From contig JANSYR010000001.1 of the NCBI GenBank assembly GCA_024742285.1, positions 682,001 through 746,000 on the forward strand: a stretch of DNA of 64,000 bases, in the 5' to 3' direction. The notes beneath the pieces were generated by a model that was not told the origin of the DNA, searched no databases, and saw only the letters and a program-made list of their open reading frames with translations. Positions 11,563 through 18,860 of the stretch are shown one piece after another. The position numbers and the translations under genes were made by a program. This DNA is from a bacterium (GTDB lineage: Bacteria > Myxococcota_A > UBA9160 > UBA4427). Numbering within the stretch: the first letter of the stretch is position 1; every line of letters begins with the position of its first letter.

Positions 11563-11963
11563 CCGTCCGTCGAAAGCAGTTCCAGCAGGTTGTGGTCCGG
11601 ATCCCGGAAGTAGACCGAGAGGCCCATCTCGCCGTCCGCCGCCGGCCGCGGACCCTCCCCCTCAATCACCTCGACGCCGTGGTCGACGAGGAGCTTTCGC
11701 GCCTCCTCGATCGGCCCGTCGAAGCGGAAGCAGAAGTCGGCCGAGCCCGGGGTGGGCGTGTCGGCGTGGGGCGAGGCGGGGGACGCCGCATCGTGGATCG
11801 AGAGGCGGCTCGCGCCGATCTGCAGGAGTACGACGGGGATCTTCCCCTCCCGCCAGAGGTCCTCGTAGATCGTCGTCGCGCCGAGGACGCGCTTGTAGAA
11901 GTCGAGGGTCGCCTCCACGTCGGCGCAGGTCAGCGCGACGTGGTCGAGTCCGCGTACGGGCAT
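11559..11963 (-). CDS. VOC family (glyoxalase/bleomycin-resistance fold) protein
   Basis: A 134-residue single VOC domain. It has the opening GLDHVALTCADVEATLDFY, the middle metal-site strand around 'SADFCFRF' and the closing 'VYFRDPDHNLLELL', whose last glutamate is the usual metal ligand. This is the layout of glyoxalase-like lyases and epimerases. I chose ATG at 11963 because GGAGGAA lies 7 nt upstream. A weaker start at 11984 would add seven residues. Its 3' end overlaps the convergent SDR stop. Substrate unknown. Confidence 0.88.
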   Translation of the reverse strand: MPVRGLDHVALTCADVEATLDFYKRVLGATTIYEDLWREGKIPVVLLQIGASRLSIHDAASPASPHADTPTPGSADFCFRFDGPIEEARKLLVDHGVEVIEGEGPRPAADGEMGLSVYFRDPDHNLLELLSTDG

Positions 11964-12042
11964 GCTTCGTTCCTCCCGGGTCATCGCTCGTTATCATCGC
12001 GCGATCCGCGGAAGCGCGCTTCCGCGAGTCAGGAGCCCGAAC

Positions 12043-12810
12043 ATGTCCGAGTCGCCCATCCTTTTCGAAAAGCGCGACGACGGGATCGCCGTCGTGACGC
12101 TCAACCGGCCGGAGAAGCTGAACGCGCTGACCGGGCCGCTCCTCGATGCCCTCGACGAAGCCGTCGACCGGGTCGCGAACGACCCCGAGATCAGGGTCTT
12201 CCTGCTGCGGGGCGCCCCGCGCCCGGACGGCCGCCCCTGCTTCAGCGCCGGCGTCGACGTGAACGCGGTCATGGAAGGGACCGGCGTCGGCGAAGAGCAG
12301 GGCTTCCTCCTCACGAACAAGATCGACGACCTGCTCAAGCCCTCGATCGCCGTCATCGACGGCATCTGCACGACCGGCGGCGCCGAGATCGCGATCGCCT
12401 GTGACTTCCGTCTGGTCGGCCGCCAGGCCCGGATCAGTGACTGGCACCTGAAGAAGCTCGGCACCGGCCTCGGCGCCTGGGGCGCGTCGACCCGCTGGGC
12501 GCGGGAGTGCGGCGTCACGAACGCGAAGCAGATGCTCCTGACCGGCCGCGAGATCGACGGCGACGAAGCGTTCCGGATCGGCTTCGCCAGCGCGGTCTAC
12601 GACTCGGACGCCCTCGACGCCGGCGCCTTCGAGATGGCGGGACGGATCGCGGAGATGAACCCCGACGGCGTGAAGCTCGTCCTCGCCCACCTCGACCGGA
12701 TCGAAGACATGAGTCGCGACCAGGCGCTTCGCTGGGCCCAGCTCTCCGCCGACTGGCTCGACGTCAAGGTCGGAGCGAGCGAGCTCCAGGGAAAGGTGCT
12801 CGGTCGCTGA
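12043..12810 (+). CDS. enoyl-CoA hydratase/isomerase family protein
   Basis: A 255-residue crotonase-fold protein. 'VVTLNRPEKLNALT' and the oxyanion-hole segment 'CFSAGVDVN' fit the family. The first catalytic position is E in GGAEIAIACD. The second glutamate of classical hydratases (usually in a P-E-x-x-x-G segment) is replaced by 'ISDWHLKKLGTGLGAWG', so this may not be a simple hydratase. AGGAG lies 8 nt before the ATG at 12043. It stands apart from the other beta-oxidation genes in the window. Confidence 0.9.
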   Translation: MSESPILFEKRDDGIAVVTLNRPEKLNALTGPLLDALDEAVDRVANDPEIRVFLLRGAPRPDGRPCFSAGVDVNAVMEGTGVGEEQGFLLTNKIDDLLKPSIAVIDGICTTGGAEIAIACDFRLVGRQARISDWHLKKLGTGLGAWGASTRWARECGVTNAKQMLLTGREIDGDEAFRIGFASAVYDSDALDAGAFEMAGRIAEMNPDGVKLVLAHLDRIEDMSRDQALRWAQLSADWLDVKVGASELQGKVLGR

Positions 12811-13303: not shown

Positions 13304-13819
13304 CTAGCCGGCGATCCGCGCCACCACTTCGTCGACCGCCTGGTCGGCGATCACGCGCATCTCGTCGTCCGTCCGATCCTGGATCGGATGCTCGACGTAG
13401 ACCGCGGAGGGTTTCGTGCCGAGCGCCTTCGCCTGCGCGTCCGCGCCGTCGACGAACTCGACGGTCGAGACGAAGACGGAGGGAACGCCGCGATCCTCGA
13501 GGTCCACCGTGTCGTGCACACTGCACGACGTGCAGCTGCCTCAATCGGCGAGGGCTTCGACGACCGCGTCACACTGGGTCGCGATCTCGTGCCGGAGGTC
13601 GATCGGCGCCGGCTTCGTGAAGGTCGGCTTCGCGTAGCGGATCACGGAAGCGCCGCGCGCGGTCAGCAGATCCTCGAGCCGGTCGAGGAAGACGTCCCCA
13701 CGCGCCTTCCGGATGTCGAGCAGTCCGATCGTCTTGCCCGCGAGCTCGGCGAGCCGGGCCGGCCGGACGCGCTCGGCCGGGACGGCTTCGCTCGAGGGGT
13801 CGAGGAGGACGGTCGTCAT
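13304..13819 (-). CDS. UGSC family selenoprotein (in-frame UGA read as selenocysteine)
   Basis: The frame runs from ATG 13819 (GGAG 8 nt upstream) to the stop at 13304, interrupted only by TGA at 13541-13543. That gives 171 residues with selenocysteine at position 93. Both halves are coding-like. The TGA is followed directly by GSCTSC, so the motif is U-G-S-C, the hallmark for which this family is named. The N-terminal part 'KTIGLLDIRKARGDVFLDRL' and the 'DAVVEALAD' before U93 match the family. After it come SVHDTVDLEDRG and 'VPSVFVSTVEF'. The pair U93/C96 is a CxxC-like redox centre. A SECIS hairpin lies just behind the UGA. It sits 34 nt downstream of a thioredoxin-fused partner. Selenocysteine machinery is not in this window. 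Confidence 0.9.
13511..13529 (-). promoter_or_regulatory. candidate bacterial SECIS element
   Basis: Within the coding sequence, right behind the TGA, GTCGTGC (13511-13517) and GCACGAC (13523-13529) form a perfect 7-bp stem. The loop reads AGTGT on the coding strand. The loop G is about 20 nt after the UGA, in the range known for bacterial SECIS hairpins, which bind SelB. It overlaps codons for T97 to D103. An alternative smaller stem (CTGCAC/GTGCAG) is also possible. Confidence 0.75.
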
Positions 13820-13853
13820 GACGTGATCTCCTTGTCGTCGCGGCCGCTGCCGC

Positions 13854-15314
13854 TCAAGGCGTGATGGCCTTGCAGACGGGCGCGCTGCCCATCTCACCGT
13901 TGGCCCAGCCGGGGATGATCGCGGAGAAGAGCCCCGCCCCCCCACCGGCATGGACGACCCGCAGGCCGTCGGGCTTGAACTTCGGAACCTGGTTGCCGCG
14001 CACGCTCTCGGGCAGGCCGTCGGCGATCCCGCCGGCGCCGCGCACGAGATCGTCGCCGTTCATGAGCGTGAGCTCGTGGAGGCGCCTCACCAGATCCTCG
14101 CGCGTCCAGCCGGCTTCGCGAAAGATTCGGGAGTGCTCCGGCGAGACGACGACGATCGCGTCGAAGGCGAGCACCATCTTCGGCGTGAGCATGTGGCGAA
14201 GCGCGTCGGCGAACATGTGACAGAGGGACTCGGGATCCCGGGCGATCTGATCGACGACCGTTCGCGGTCCCTCGCCCGGAAAGAGCGTGACCGTATTCGT
14301 CCCCGCCTCGAAGCCGAACTCCGTATTGAGGGGCGTGAAGGGCGAGCCTTCCTCGTCTTCGGGGAAACAGAAGCCGACCTTGCCGGGGTTGCCGAGGGTG
14401 GCGCGATCGACCTCGCCGGGCCGGCCGCCGCCGACGTTCCGGATGACCAGCTGGAGGGCGCGTCCGATCGTGCTGTTCGCGCGATTGCCCTGACCGAATA
14501 CGTTCTTGCCCGCGTTCATTCCGATCGCGTTCCGGATCGGGCCGTTCACCACGAGCACCGGTCCCGCGGACATGGTCGTCGCGAGCAGGCCGTGGATGTT
14601 GAACTCATCCGTACACGCCGCCTCGACCGCCGCGATCACGACCGGCAGGTACTCGGGCTTGCAGCCCGCCATGACGGCGTTGATCGCGACCTTTTCGACC
14701 GTGCAGGGCGCCAGATCGGGCGGAACGTTCGCGACGACCTCGTCCGGGGCGCGCGTCGTTCCCTCGAGCATGCGCAGCACCCGCGCTTCCGTCGGCGGCA
14801 CGATCGGCAGGCCGTCGGTCCAGCCGCGATCGAAGAAGGCTTCCTGCTCGTCCTCGAGCTCGGCGATCTCGACGCGGCGGGCCTTGAGCTTCGACCCGGT
14901 GAAGCGGATCGCGAGCTCCGGCGCGCGAGAGGGATCGACGGAGAGCGAGCCGCAACCCGGACGGAGCTCGGGCAGGCCCGGGCCGAGATCGGCGACACGG
15001 GTCAGCGCCTCCCACTCGCCGCGATGCCAGCCGATCGCGCGCTCGACTTCCTCTCCGCCCTCGACGCGAAGAAGCGTCGGAACCGCCTCGATCTCGTGAT
15101 GCCAGGAAACGGCCAGATCCGTGTCGTCGACCCGGTCGACGCCGTCCGGGAACCCCGGATCGTCCTGGGTATAGACGGTGACCGGAGCCTCCTTCGAGAG
15201 CGCGGCGAGCACCGGCGCGACCAGCTCGCAGGTCGGGCAGTCGCGCTTCACGAAGGCAACGATGCCCTCGGGCAGGGGCGGCTTCGCCGTCGGATCGGAG
15301 GGGGTGGACGCCAT
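13854..15314 (-). CDS. thioredoxin-like domain fused to UGSC-partner protein
   Basis: A 486-residue protein with two parts. Residues about 15-115 are thioredoxin-like: the active site is CPTC (26-29, in VKRDCPTCELV) and a cis-proline segment VPT lies at 78-80. From about 155 on comes a larger domain opening with 'WTDGLPIVPPTEARV' (165-179), followed by 'AGCKPEYLPVV' and 'GMNAGKNVFGQGNRANSTIG'. I know this combination as a family of uncharacterised proteins next to UGSC selenoproteins. No biochemical activity is established to my knowledge. It starts at ATG 15314. It ends at TGA 13854, which I read as a true stop since no UGSC follows. It forms an operon with the selenoprotein 34 nt downstream and could reduce it, which is inference. 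Confidence 0.85.
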   Translation of the reverse strand: MASTPSDPTAKPPLPEGIVAFVKRDCPTCELVAPVLAALSKEAPVTVYTQDDPGFPDGVDRVDDTDLAVSWHHEIEAVPTLLRVEGGEEVERAIGWHRGEWEALTRVADLGPGLPELRPGCGSLSVDPSRAPELAIRFTGSKLKARRVEIAELEDEQEAFFDRGWTDGLPIVPPTEARVLRMLEGTTRAPDEVVANVPPDLAPCTVEKVAINAVMAGCKPEYLPVVIAAVEAACTDEFNIHGLLATTMSAGPVLVVNGPIRNAIGMNAGKNVFGQGNRANSTIGRALQLVIRNVGGGRPGEVDRATLGNPGKVGFCFPEDEEGSPFTPLNTEFGFEAGTNTVTLFPGEGPRTVVDQIARDPESLCHMFADALRHMLTPKMVLAFDAIVVVSPEHSRIFREAGWTREDLVRRLHELTLMNGDDLVRGAGGIADGLPESVRGNQVPKFKPDGLRVVHAGGGAGLFSAIIPGWANGEMGSAPVCKAITP

Positions 15315-15404: not shown

Positions 15405-16565
15405 ATGACCGAATCCAGCGCGAACGGGCCCCTCGCGGGCTACCGCGTCGTCGACCTGACCACGATGATCTCGGGCCCCATGGCCACCTGTGTCCTCGGG
15501 GACCAGGGCGCCGACGTGATCAAGGTCGAGTCCCCCGGCGTGGGCGACCTGGTCCGCCGGCTCGGCGCCCCCCGCGATGGGATCACCGCGACCTTCGCGA
15601 CGACCAACCGCAACAAGCGCTCGATCGTCCTCGACCTCAAGCAGGACTCCGACATGGAGGCGTTCCGGAAGCTCGTCGCGACCGCCGACGTCGTCGTCCA
15701 GAACTTCCGCCCCGGCGTCGTCGACCGCATGGGCATCGGCTGTGACGCCCTGCGCGCGATCAAGCCCGACCTGATCTACGTCTCGATCTCGGGCTTCGGC
15801 GAGACGGGGCCCTACTCCGGCAAGCGCGTCTACGACCCGGTCATCCAGGCGCTCTCCGGACTCGCGACGATCCAGGGCGATCGCGGCGTCGGTCGACCGA
15901 AGATGATGCGCGTCGTGATCCCGGACAAGGTCACGGCGATGACCGCCGCGCAGGCGATCACGGCGGCGCTCCTCGCGAAGGAGCGGACCGGAGAGGGGCA
16001 GCACGTCAAGCTCTCGATGCTCGATGCGATGATCTCCCTCGCCTGGCCCGAAGGCTACGCGGGTCACACCTTCGTGGGCAGCGAGGCCGACGTGCCGCGC
16101 AACGCCCTCGCCCAGGACCTCGTCTTCGAGACGAAGGACGGATACATGACGGCGGGCGCGGTCTCGGACTCCGAGTGGCACGGGCTGACCCGCGCCCTCG
16201 GCCATCCCGAGTGGCTCGACGACGATCGTTTCAAGACCGCGGGCGGCCGCGTCGCCTACGCGAAGGAGCGCCTCGACCAGACCGCCGACGTACTCGTCAC
16301 GCGCACCACCGAGGAGTGGCTCGAGCGCCTCGACGCGGAGCAGGTCCCCTGCGCCCCGATCCTGCCGCTCTCGGAGATCCTCGAGCATCCGCAGATCGAA
16401 GCGACCGGCGTGGTCGTCGAGACGGATCACCCCGTCGCGGGCCGGATCCGTCAGGCGCGCGCCGCCGCGCAGTTCGAGAAGACCCCGACCAACCTGGACC
16501 GCCCCGCCCCGACGCTCGGCGAGCACACGGACGAGATCCTCGCCGAGCTCGGCCTCGCGCGGTAG
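15405..16565 (+). CDS. CaiB/BaiF family (class III) CoA-transferase
   Basis: A 386-residue type III CoA-transferase, which moves CoA between carboxylic acids by a mixed-anhydride mechanism on an aspartate. The N-terminal 'GYRVVDLTTMISGPMA' and 'LGDQGADVIKVESPG' are diagnostic. The catalytic aspartate is D144 in RVYDPVIQALSG. The family contains fatty-acid, bile-acid, carnitine and aromatic-acid enzymes. It is first in a same-strand run with an MDR reductase, a second CoA-transferase and a GNAT. The gap to the next gene is only 36 nt, so one operon is likely. Confidence 0.94.
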   Translation: MTESSANGPLAGYRVVDLTTMISGPMATCVLGDQGADVIKVESPGVGDLVRRLGAPRDGITATFATTNRNKRSIVLDLKQDSDMEAFRKLVATADVVVQNFRPGVVDRMGIGCDALRAIKPDLIYVSISGFGETGPYSGKRVYDPVIQALSGLATIQGDRGVGRPKMMRVVIPDKVTAMTAAQAITAALLAKERTGEGQHVKLSMLDAMISLAWPEGYAGHTFVGSEADVPRNALAQDLVFETKDGYMTAGAVSDSEWHGLTRALGHPEWLDDDRFKTAGGRVAYAKERLDQTADVLVTRTTEEWLERLDAEQVPCAPILPLSEILEHPQIEATGVVVETDHPVAGRIRQARAAAQFEKTPTNLDRPAPTLGEHTDEILAELGLAR

Positions 16566-17639: not shown

Positions 17640-18860
17640 ATGACCGAATCCAATGCACTCCCCCTCGAAGGGGTCCGCATCCTCGCCGTCGAGCAGATGC
17701 AGGCCATGCCCTTCGGAACGCAGCTCCTCGCACGGATGGGCGCGGACGTCGTCAAGGTCGAGCACCCGACGCGCGGCGAGTCCGGCCGCGGAAGCCTGCC
17801 CTCGATCACCGACGAAGACGGGAGCGAGACCGGCGCGACCTTCCTCCGCAACAACCTCGCGAAACGGAGCCTCGGCCTCGACCTCAAGAACCCGAAGGGC
17901 GCCGAGCTCTTCAAGAAGCTCGTCCCCGCCTACGACGTCGTCGTCGAGAACTTCAAGCCCGGCACGATGGAACGGCTCGGGCTCGGCTACGACACGCTCG
18001 AGGAGATCCATCCCGGCGTCATCTACGTGGCCGTCTCGGGCTTCGGATCCCTCCGCGAGACGCCCTACGGCAGCTGGCCGGCCTATGCCTGCGTTCCGGA
18101 GGCGATGAGCGGCTTCTACTCCTTCCGCCCGGAGGAAGGGCGACGGCCCAACATCGGCGTCGCCGGCGCGATCGGCGACATCGGCTCGGGCCTCTTCGCG
18201 ATGATCGGGCTGCTCGCGGCGCTCCACCGCAAGAACCAGACGGGCCGCGGACAGAAGGTCGACGTCGCCATGATGGACGCGATGATCTCGATCATGGACA
18301 TGGTCGCGTTCGGACCGTCCATCGGCCAACACGACCAGAGCCTCAAGGCCTGGCCCGGCATCCTGCAGTGCTTCGACGCGAAGGACGGCATGTTCGTGCT
18401 CCAGGTCGGCCGCGAGCACCAGTTCGAAGCGCTCGCCGATCTGATCGGCTGCCCCGAGTGGAAGACCGACGAACGCTTCGCGACGCGACAGGGGTGGAGC
18501 GAGAACATCGAGCCCGTGATCCGTCCGGCAGTCGAAGCCTGGGCCGCGGACAAGACGAAGCTCGAGGCGTCGCGCATCCTCGCCGAGTCCGGCGTCGTCG
18601 CCGGCCCCTCCTACGAGGGGCACGACCTCCTCGCGGATCCGCACGTTCGATCCCACGACATGCTCTGCGAGGTCCCGGTCGAGGGCCGGGAGGACCCGGT
18701 GATCGTCCACGGCAACCCGATCAAGTTCTCGGGAAGCCCCGAAGGCCCGACGGACAAGTGGCCCCTCGTCGGCGAACACACGTCCGAGGTCCTCGAAGGC
18801 GACCTCGGACTCGCCGACGACGAGCTGGCCGTGCTGCGCAGCGAAGGCGTGATCAACTGA
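17640..18860 (+). CDS. CaiB/BaiF family CoA-transferase
   Basis: A 406-residue class III CoA-transferase. The motif 'QMQAMPFGTQLLARMGADVVKVEHP' marks the N-terminal half. The usual catalytic aspartate region is changed: the stretch after 'VSGFGS' reads 'SWPAYACVPEAMSG', where the expected D in a Y-D-x-x-x-Q segment is not visible. Activity at that site is therefore uncertain. It overlaps nothing upstream (9-nt gap) and its TGA is shared with the CTG start of the following GNAT. It resembles the first CoA-transferase but is clearly diverged. Confidence 0.91.
   Translation: MTESNALPLEGVRILAVEQMQAMPFGTQLLARMGADVVKVEHPTRGESGRGSLPSITDEDGSETGATFLRNNLAKRSLGLDLKNPKGAELFKKLVPAYDVVVENFKPGTMERLGLGYDTLEEIHPGVIYVAVSGFGSLRETPYGSWPAYACVPEAMSGFYSFRPEEGRRPNIGVAGAIGDIGSGLFAMIGLLAALHRKNQTGRGQKVDVAMMDAMISIMDMVAFGPSIGQHDQSLKAWPGILQCFDAKDGMFVLQVGREHQFEALADLIGCPEWKTDERFATRQGWSENIEPVIRPAVEAWAADKTKLEASRILAESGVVAGPSYEGHDLLADPHVRSHDMLCEVPVEGREDPVIVHGNPIKFSGSPEGPTDKWPLVGEHTSEVLEGDLGLADDELAVLRSEGVIN

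Follow-up and report, generated by a model that had tools for sequence, protein, structure and literature searches.

The window is the 64,000-nucleotide stretch of bacterial DNA analyzed as a whole. Its UGSC family selenoprotein gene lies on the minus strand, which the first-pass annotation had not specified. A second gene, the partner, is located upstream on the same strand, with 34 nt between its end and the UGSC start codon. The features of the locus are as follows.

13304–13819, minus strand: UGSC family selenoprotein gene, 171 aa, from ATG 13819 to TAG 13304, matched by NF041046 and PF24696 with the TGA read through
13541–13543, minus strand: in-frame TGA, putative Sec93 of the U-G-S-C motif; a single TGA in 96 of 98 family places, TGT or TGC in rare relatives
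13511–13529, minus strand: upper stem-loop of a bacterial SECIS, 8 bp, 3-nt loop GUG, the loop starting 19 nt after the UGA
13828–13833, minus strand: Shine-Dalgarno-like AAGGAG, 8 nt before ATG 13819, by sequence reading
13854–15314 (stop included), minus strand: partner protein gene, 486 aa, homologous to a gene next to UGSC at nearly every locus
14985–15281, minus strand: partner thioredoxin-fold domain; profile match to solved thioredoxins with E 6e-5, and thioredoxins as the top Foldseek and VIA matches
15228–15239, minus strand: partner CPTC redox motif (C26, C29), from the sequence
13857–14861, minus strand: partner C-terminal domain (about 335–340 aa), accompanying UGSC in 39 of 41 places and fused to it in one (L120)

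The first-pass annotation had described one frame running through the TGA, with both sides looking coding. The frame was confirmed: it spans 171 residues, the TGA is its sole interruption, and the coordinates and the residue number were correct. With the TGA as Sec, the motif residues are U93-G94-S95-C96. In comparisons with seven orthologues, third codon positions took most of the differences before and after the TGA; for one orthologue (L032), the differences by codon position were 3/3/27 upstream and 4/4/10 downstream. As predicted, a table-11 caller cut the gene into two pieces, 13541–13951 and 13304–13519, making it a plain case of a gene broken by standard callers. The GTG at 13519, the would-be start of the downstream piece, sits inside the SECIS hairpin. 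Elsewhere in the window TGA serves as a stop, at the ends of 11962–12810, 17640–18860 and the partner gene.

The read-through protein was searched against NCBIfam and Pfam. It matched NF041046, 'UGSC family (seleno)protein', with 153.9 bits (cut-off 125, E 3e-45) and PF24696 with 151.6 bits (cut-off 25, E 3e-44); both matches were whole-length and above the curated cut-offs. With the [U/C]-G-S-C columns invariant, these matches bore out the earlier assignment to a family carrying Sec or Cys at the motif. C96 was invariant in a 25-sequence alignment, and U93 and C96 may form a redox centre. UxxC selenoproteins are mostly thiol redox proteins. The UGSC family was first described in 2008 as 'UGSC-containing protein' in the Global Ocean Sampling selenoproteome, where the Sec form dominated (255 Sec versus 21 Cys forms) and UGSC proteins were among the commonest selenoproteins of aquatic metagenomes (PMC2398784). 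A 2026 review placed them among selenoproteins with largely uncharacterised functions (PMC13188914).

The genome of the window carries four more UGSC paralogues (G000:C3:468001, C3:513381, C1:356785 and C1:85813), each with a single in-frame TGA and an adjoining partner domain. Another genome (G001) has eight UGSC places. Among paralogues the U-G-S-C core was constant and the residues after it varied: UGSCTSGS, UGSCTSSS, UGSCSARS, UGSCTTGT and UGSCSSGS were seen in L049, L095, L119, L093, L118; L048, L094, L102; and L092, L096. U-G-A-C, U-G-G-C and U-G-N-C replaced U-G-S-C in L099 (second copy), L152 and L160.

To decode UGA as Sec, a genome needs its machinery, and selA, selB, selD and tRNA-Sec were all present, each above its curated cut-off; the anticodon of the tRNA-Sec is UCA. 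Family members were found at 98 places in 61 related genomes. A single in-frame TGA was present in 96 of them, one of which also has a TAG, and none in the other two. The TGA is not a chance occurrence, because it recurs at this frequency across the family. Relatives with Cys at the UGA position were also found (L053 TGT, L054 TGC, L099 TGT and L120 TGT): two in G008 and a single copy each in G293 and a Streptosporangiales MAG. On a 60-sequence tree, Sec and Cys interchanged four times, and well-supported branches required at least three of these changes; the window protein fell within an all-Sec clade of 21 members (SH-aLRT 99). Across 284 genomes of the phylum, selA scored above the cut-off in 47 of 48 UGSC genomes versus 123 of 236 others (Fisher 6e-11, which is not a clean probability because the genomes are related). 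Within the class, the counts were 46/47 and 9/13 (p 0.006).

The region after the UGA was analyzed for a bacterial SECIS. The upper stem occupies positions 15–33 counted from the U of UGA, with −10.9 kcal/mol and a z of −3.4. The hairpin agrees with all of the published bSECIS rules, namely a loop of 3–9 nt, an upper stem of 4–16 bp, a G in the first two loop positions, a spacing of 16–37 nt (19 nt here) and an MFE ≤ −7.5 (PMC13188914). Among 72 distinct Sec sequences, the stem was paired in 93.75% of cells and showed 30 two-sided changes. The observed pairing and covariation were reached by 0 of 1000 column shuffles, and slid versions of the hairpin paired at 11–55%. Pair 21–27 switched between C-G and G-C in step with replacement of Cys by Trp in the protein; pair 19–29 occurred as T-A, C-G, G-T and A-T. 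Of the 72 Sec sequences, 64 had the loop GU; of the 4 Cys sequences, none did. The loop coincides with a Ser codon AGT in 64/72, a codon used for only 3 of 131 Ser residues in nine window genes. Some divergent copies, with ACG or ACC at the loop codon, deviate from the fixed-position hairpin. The upper stem alone was clearly above shuffles; a longer hairpin including the UGA was not (z −1.2).

Other readings of the TGA were weighed against these results. A sequencing error or a broken pseudogene would be in keeping with the split by the table-11 caller, the sole point in its favor. It is refuted by the same codon being TGA in 96/98 places and 61 genomes; the purifying pattern on both sides and the covarying SECIS also speak against it, leaving this reading next to no probability. 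We found no supporting point for an alternative code in which every TGA is read as an amino acid. Three window genes end in TGA, relatives have Cys rather than Trp or Gly at the UGA position, and selA, selB, selD and tRNA-Sec are present, so we consider such a code extremely improbable. Both were rejected on TGA conservation, Cys relatives, SECIS, coding pattern and TGA stops. Two separate proteins, the first terminated by the TGA and the second initiated at GTG 13519, would have an available start codon, but the conserved GSCTSC segment falls between the TGA and this GTG, which itself belongs to the hairpin. The Cys homologues are single chains, which refutes this reading, and we give it virtually no credence.

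The selenocysteine reading is retained. The Sec machinery, the Cys relatives and the covarying SECIS all upheld the earlier proposal that residue 93 is Sec; neither a genome lacking Sec machinery nor homologues all ending or starting at the TGA, which had been named as counter-evidence, was found. Almost certainly, SelB and tRNA-Sec(UCA) insert Sec93 at UGA 13541–13543 under the direction of the hairpin at 13511–13529. This identification is about as firm as sequence allows.

UGSC is almost never found without an adjacent partner domain, a point missed in the first-pass annotation. A profile of the partner C-terminal domain detected 41 places in 13 genomes, of which 39 were at most 400 bases from a UGSC gene; the two others were short fragments. 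In the genome of the window, the domain lies beside all five UGSC copies. Gene order was variable, the partner lying on either side of UGSC, and the pairing was kept in very divergent paralogues and in Cys forms. In the Streptosporangiales MAG (L120, 5977–7692, plus strand), a Cys-type UGSC and the partner domain form a single frame of 571 residues. The partner was about 4 kb from UGSC in L063, and no adjacent partner was seen in the stretch read for L107, L155 and L160. The partner domain may correspond to 'Unknown_1', a fusion domain in the 2008 paper.

The C-terminal domain contains near-invariant Cys218 and Cys316. Searches of Pfam, NCBIfam and PDB sequences found no match to it. Its structure search gave low-probability matches only (cyclic amide hydrolase, fumarate hydratase), and the VIA list for the partner was filled by thioredoxin-domain matches. 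No similarity was detected between UGSC and the partner profile. Two CoA-transferase family III genes (15405–16565 and 17640–18860, plus strand) adjoin the pair in the window, and members of their homology cluster recur near 6 of 25 UGSC loci. These neighbors perhaps hint at CoA-linked substrates, or they just reflect the abundance of such genes.

The presence of a third cysteine was compared with the domain content of the partner. The UGSC group of the window has UxxCxxC (U93, C96, C99) and partners with a thioredoxin domain. A second, divergent third-Cys group (L141 and L142) also has partners with a thioredoxin domain (CETC/CDTC). Where Trp, Gly, Arg, Ser or Tyr occupies the third place, the partners are without it. 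L143 and L021 are exceptions, with a third Cys and no thioredoxin domain. This association of Cys99 with thioredoxin counts clades, not independent events. It suggests an electron path linking substrate, Sec93, Cys96, Cys99 and CPTC.

The 3D structure of the UGSC protein was modeled using AlphaFold2 (pLDDT 94.7). DSSP assigned five alternating strand-helix units; U93 falls between strand 85–91 and helix 94–109. The fold is predicted to be Rossmann/flavodoxin-like and not thioredoxin-like; a thioredoxin topology with an antiparallel C-terminal hairpin was not seen in the model. A profile search against PDB sequences gave nothing significant. The structure search returned many Rossmann/flavodoxin-like chains, the best being 8s7v_H (Z 11.6, 131 residues, 3.1 Å), barely above the remaining matches. 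By sequence, TIGR01917 matched weakly at residues 79–124 (E 0.003, 16.4 bits versus a cut-off of 602.2), and a Pfam search gave no match to PF07355. Alignment with GrdB-like selenoproteins of the same phylum placed Sec on Sec (hhalign P 4e-4). These matches point to a weak resemblance to GrdB around the Sec segment. UGSC was not filed as a GrdB/PrdB family member, its TIGR01917 score being far below the curated cut-off.

Besides UGSC, the genome of the window encodes a selenoprotein of another type, GrdB/PrdB-like (PF07355), at L131:1048–1851, minus strand (G000:C15 about 136325). Its frame reads '...VDVALMVPV', then an in-frame TGA, and continues, likewise in many relatives. The six-frame match ends just before the Sec.

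The partner is almost always beside UGSC and once fused to it; therefore, both are suggested to form one selenium enzyme. The decoding apparatus, SECIS, family, partner pairing and predicted folds were all established computationally. We consider it fairly probable that UGSC and its partner constitute one two-component, thiol-recharged selenoenzyme. The partner half would be the ~340-aa domain of the upstream gene, with its own thioredoxin domain in the orthologous group of the window. The Sec93 selenolate, at the N-terminus of a helix in the Rossmann/flavodoxin-like domain, would attack a substrate held with the partner domain. Cys96 would resolve the adduct, giving a selenenylsulfide that would be passed to Cys99 and then reduced by the CPTC thioredoxin domain. 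In outline, such a cycle would resemble that of glycine or D-proline reductase, with a Sec subunit, a partner and thiol recharge. Complex formation, the electron route and the reaction type are what we infer here. Reductive-cleavage chemistry akin to GrdB is only a tentative suggestion. It is likewise speculative that these pairs represent an undescribed two-component selenoenzyme class, a distant relative of glycine/D-proline reductase that uses selenolate reductive cleavage on several different substrates, with at least five paralogous pairs in single genomes of the genus.

Sec could be real and UGSC still be a stand-alone thiol oxidoreductase of the peroxidase or disulfide reductase type, its neighbor being only an electron donor or co-regulated. 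The general nature of UxxC selenoproteins counts for this reading, as do the thioredoxin domain of the window partner and the Trx-like fold suggested for UGSC in 2008 (PMC2398784). However, the model predicts a sandwich of alternating strands and helices, the partner part kept everywhere is the ~340-aa domain and not thioredoxin, and the fusion in L120 has no detected thioredoxin domain. We regard the stand-alone enzyme as rather unlikely.

A two-component enzyme remains our preferred reading. The near-obligate partner domain is a useful addition to knowledge of UGSC, along with the covarying SECIS and the predicted non-thioredoxin fold. Its presence with almost all copies, Cys forms among them, and its natural fusion provide a handle for expressing the right complex. 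It also offers a concrete route to the UGSC substrate.

The window gene does not differ from the UGSC family (NF041046/PF24696): it has the same full-length match with Sec in U-G-S-C, and it is a further member of this already known family. The N-terminal domain of the partner shares the fold and the CPTC motif with thioredoxin; the partner differs in that this domain is joined to a ~340-aa domain of no known family. GrdB/PrdB proteins are defined by cleaving an amino-acid substrate reductively, by way of a selenoether. Relative to protein B of glycine/sarcosine/betaine reductase and PrdB of D-proline reductase (PF07355, TIGR01917), UGSC scores far below the cut-offs, and its partner resembles no Pfam family at a detectable level. 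In glycine and D-proline reductases, a Sec subunit works alongside a partner subunit and dithiols do the recharging (PMC10298544); because of this arrangement, we took GrdB/PrdB as a lead to the mechanism. These proteins likewise have Sec after a strand, in UxxC(xxC), and they share with UGSC a partner subunit, thiol recharge (proposed for UGSC) and weak profile similarity around Sec.
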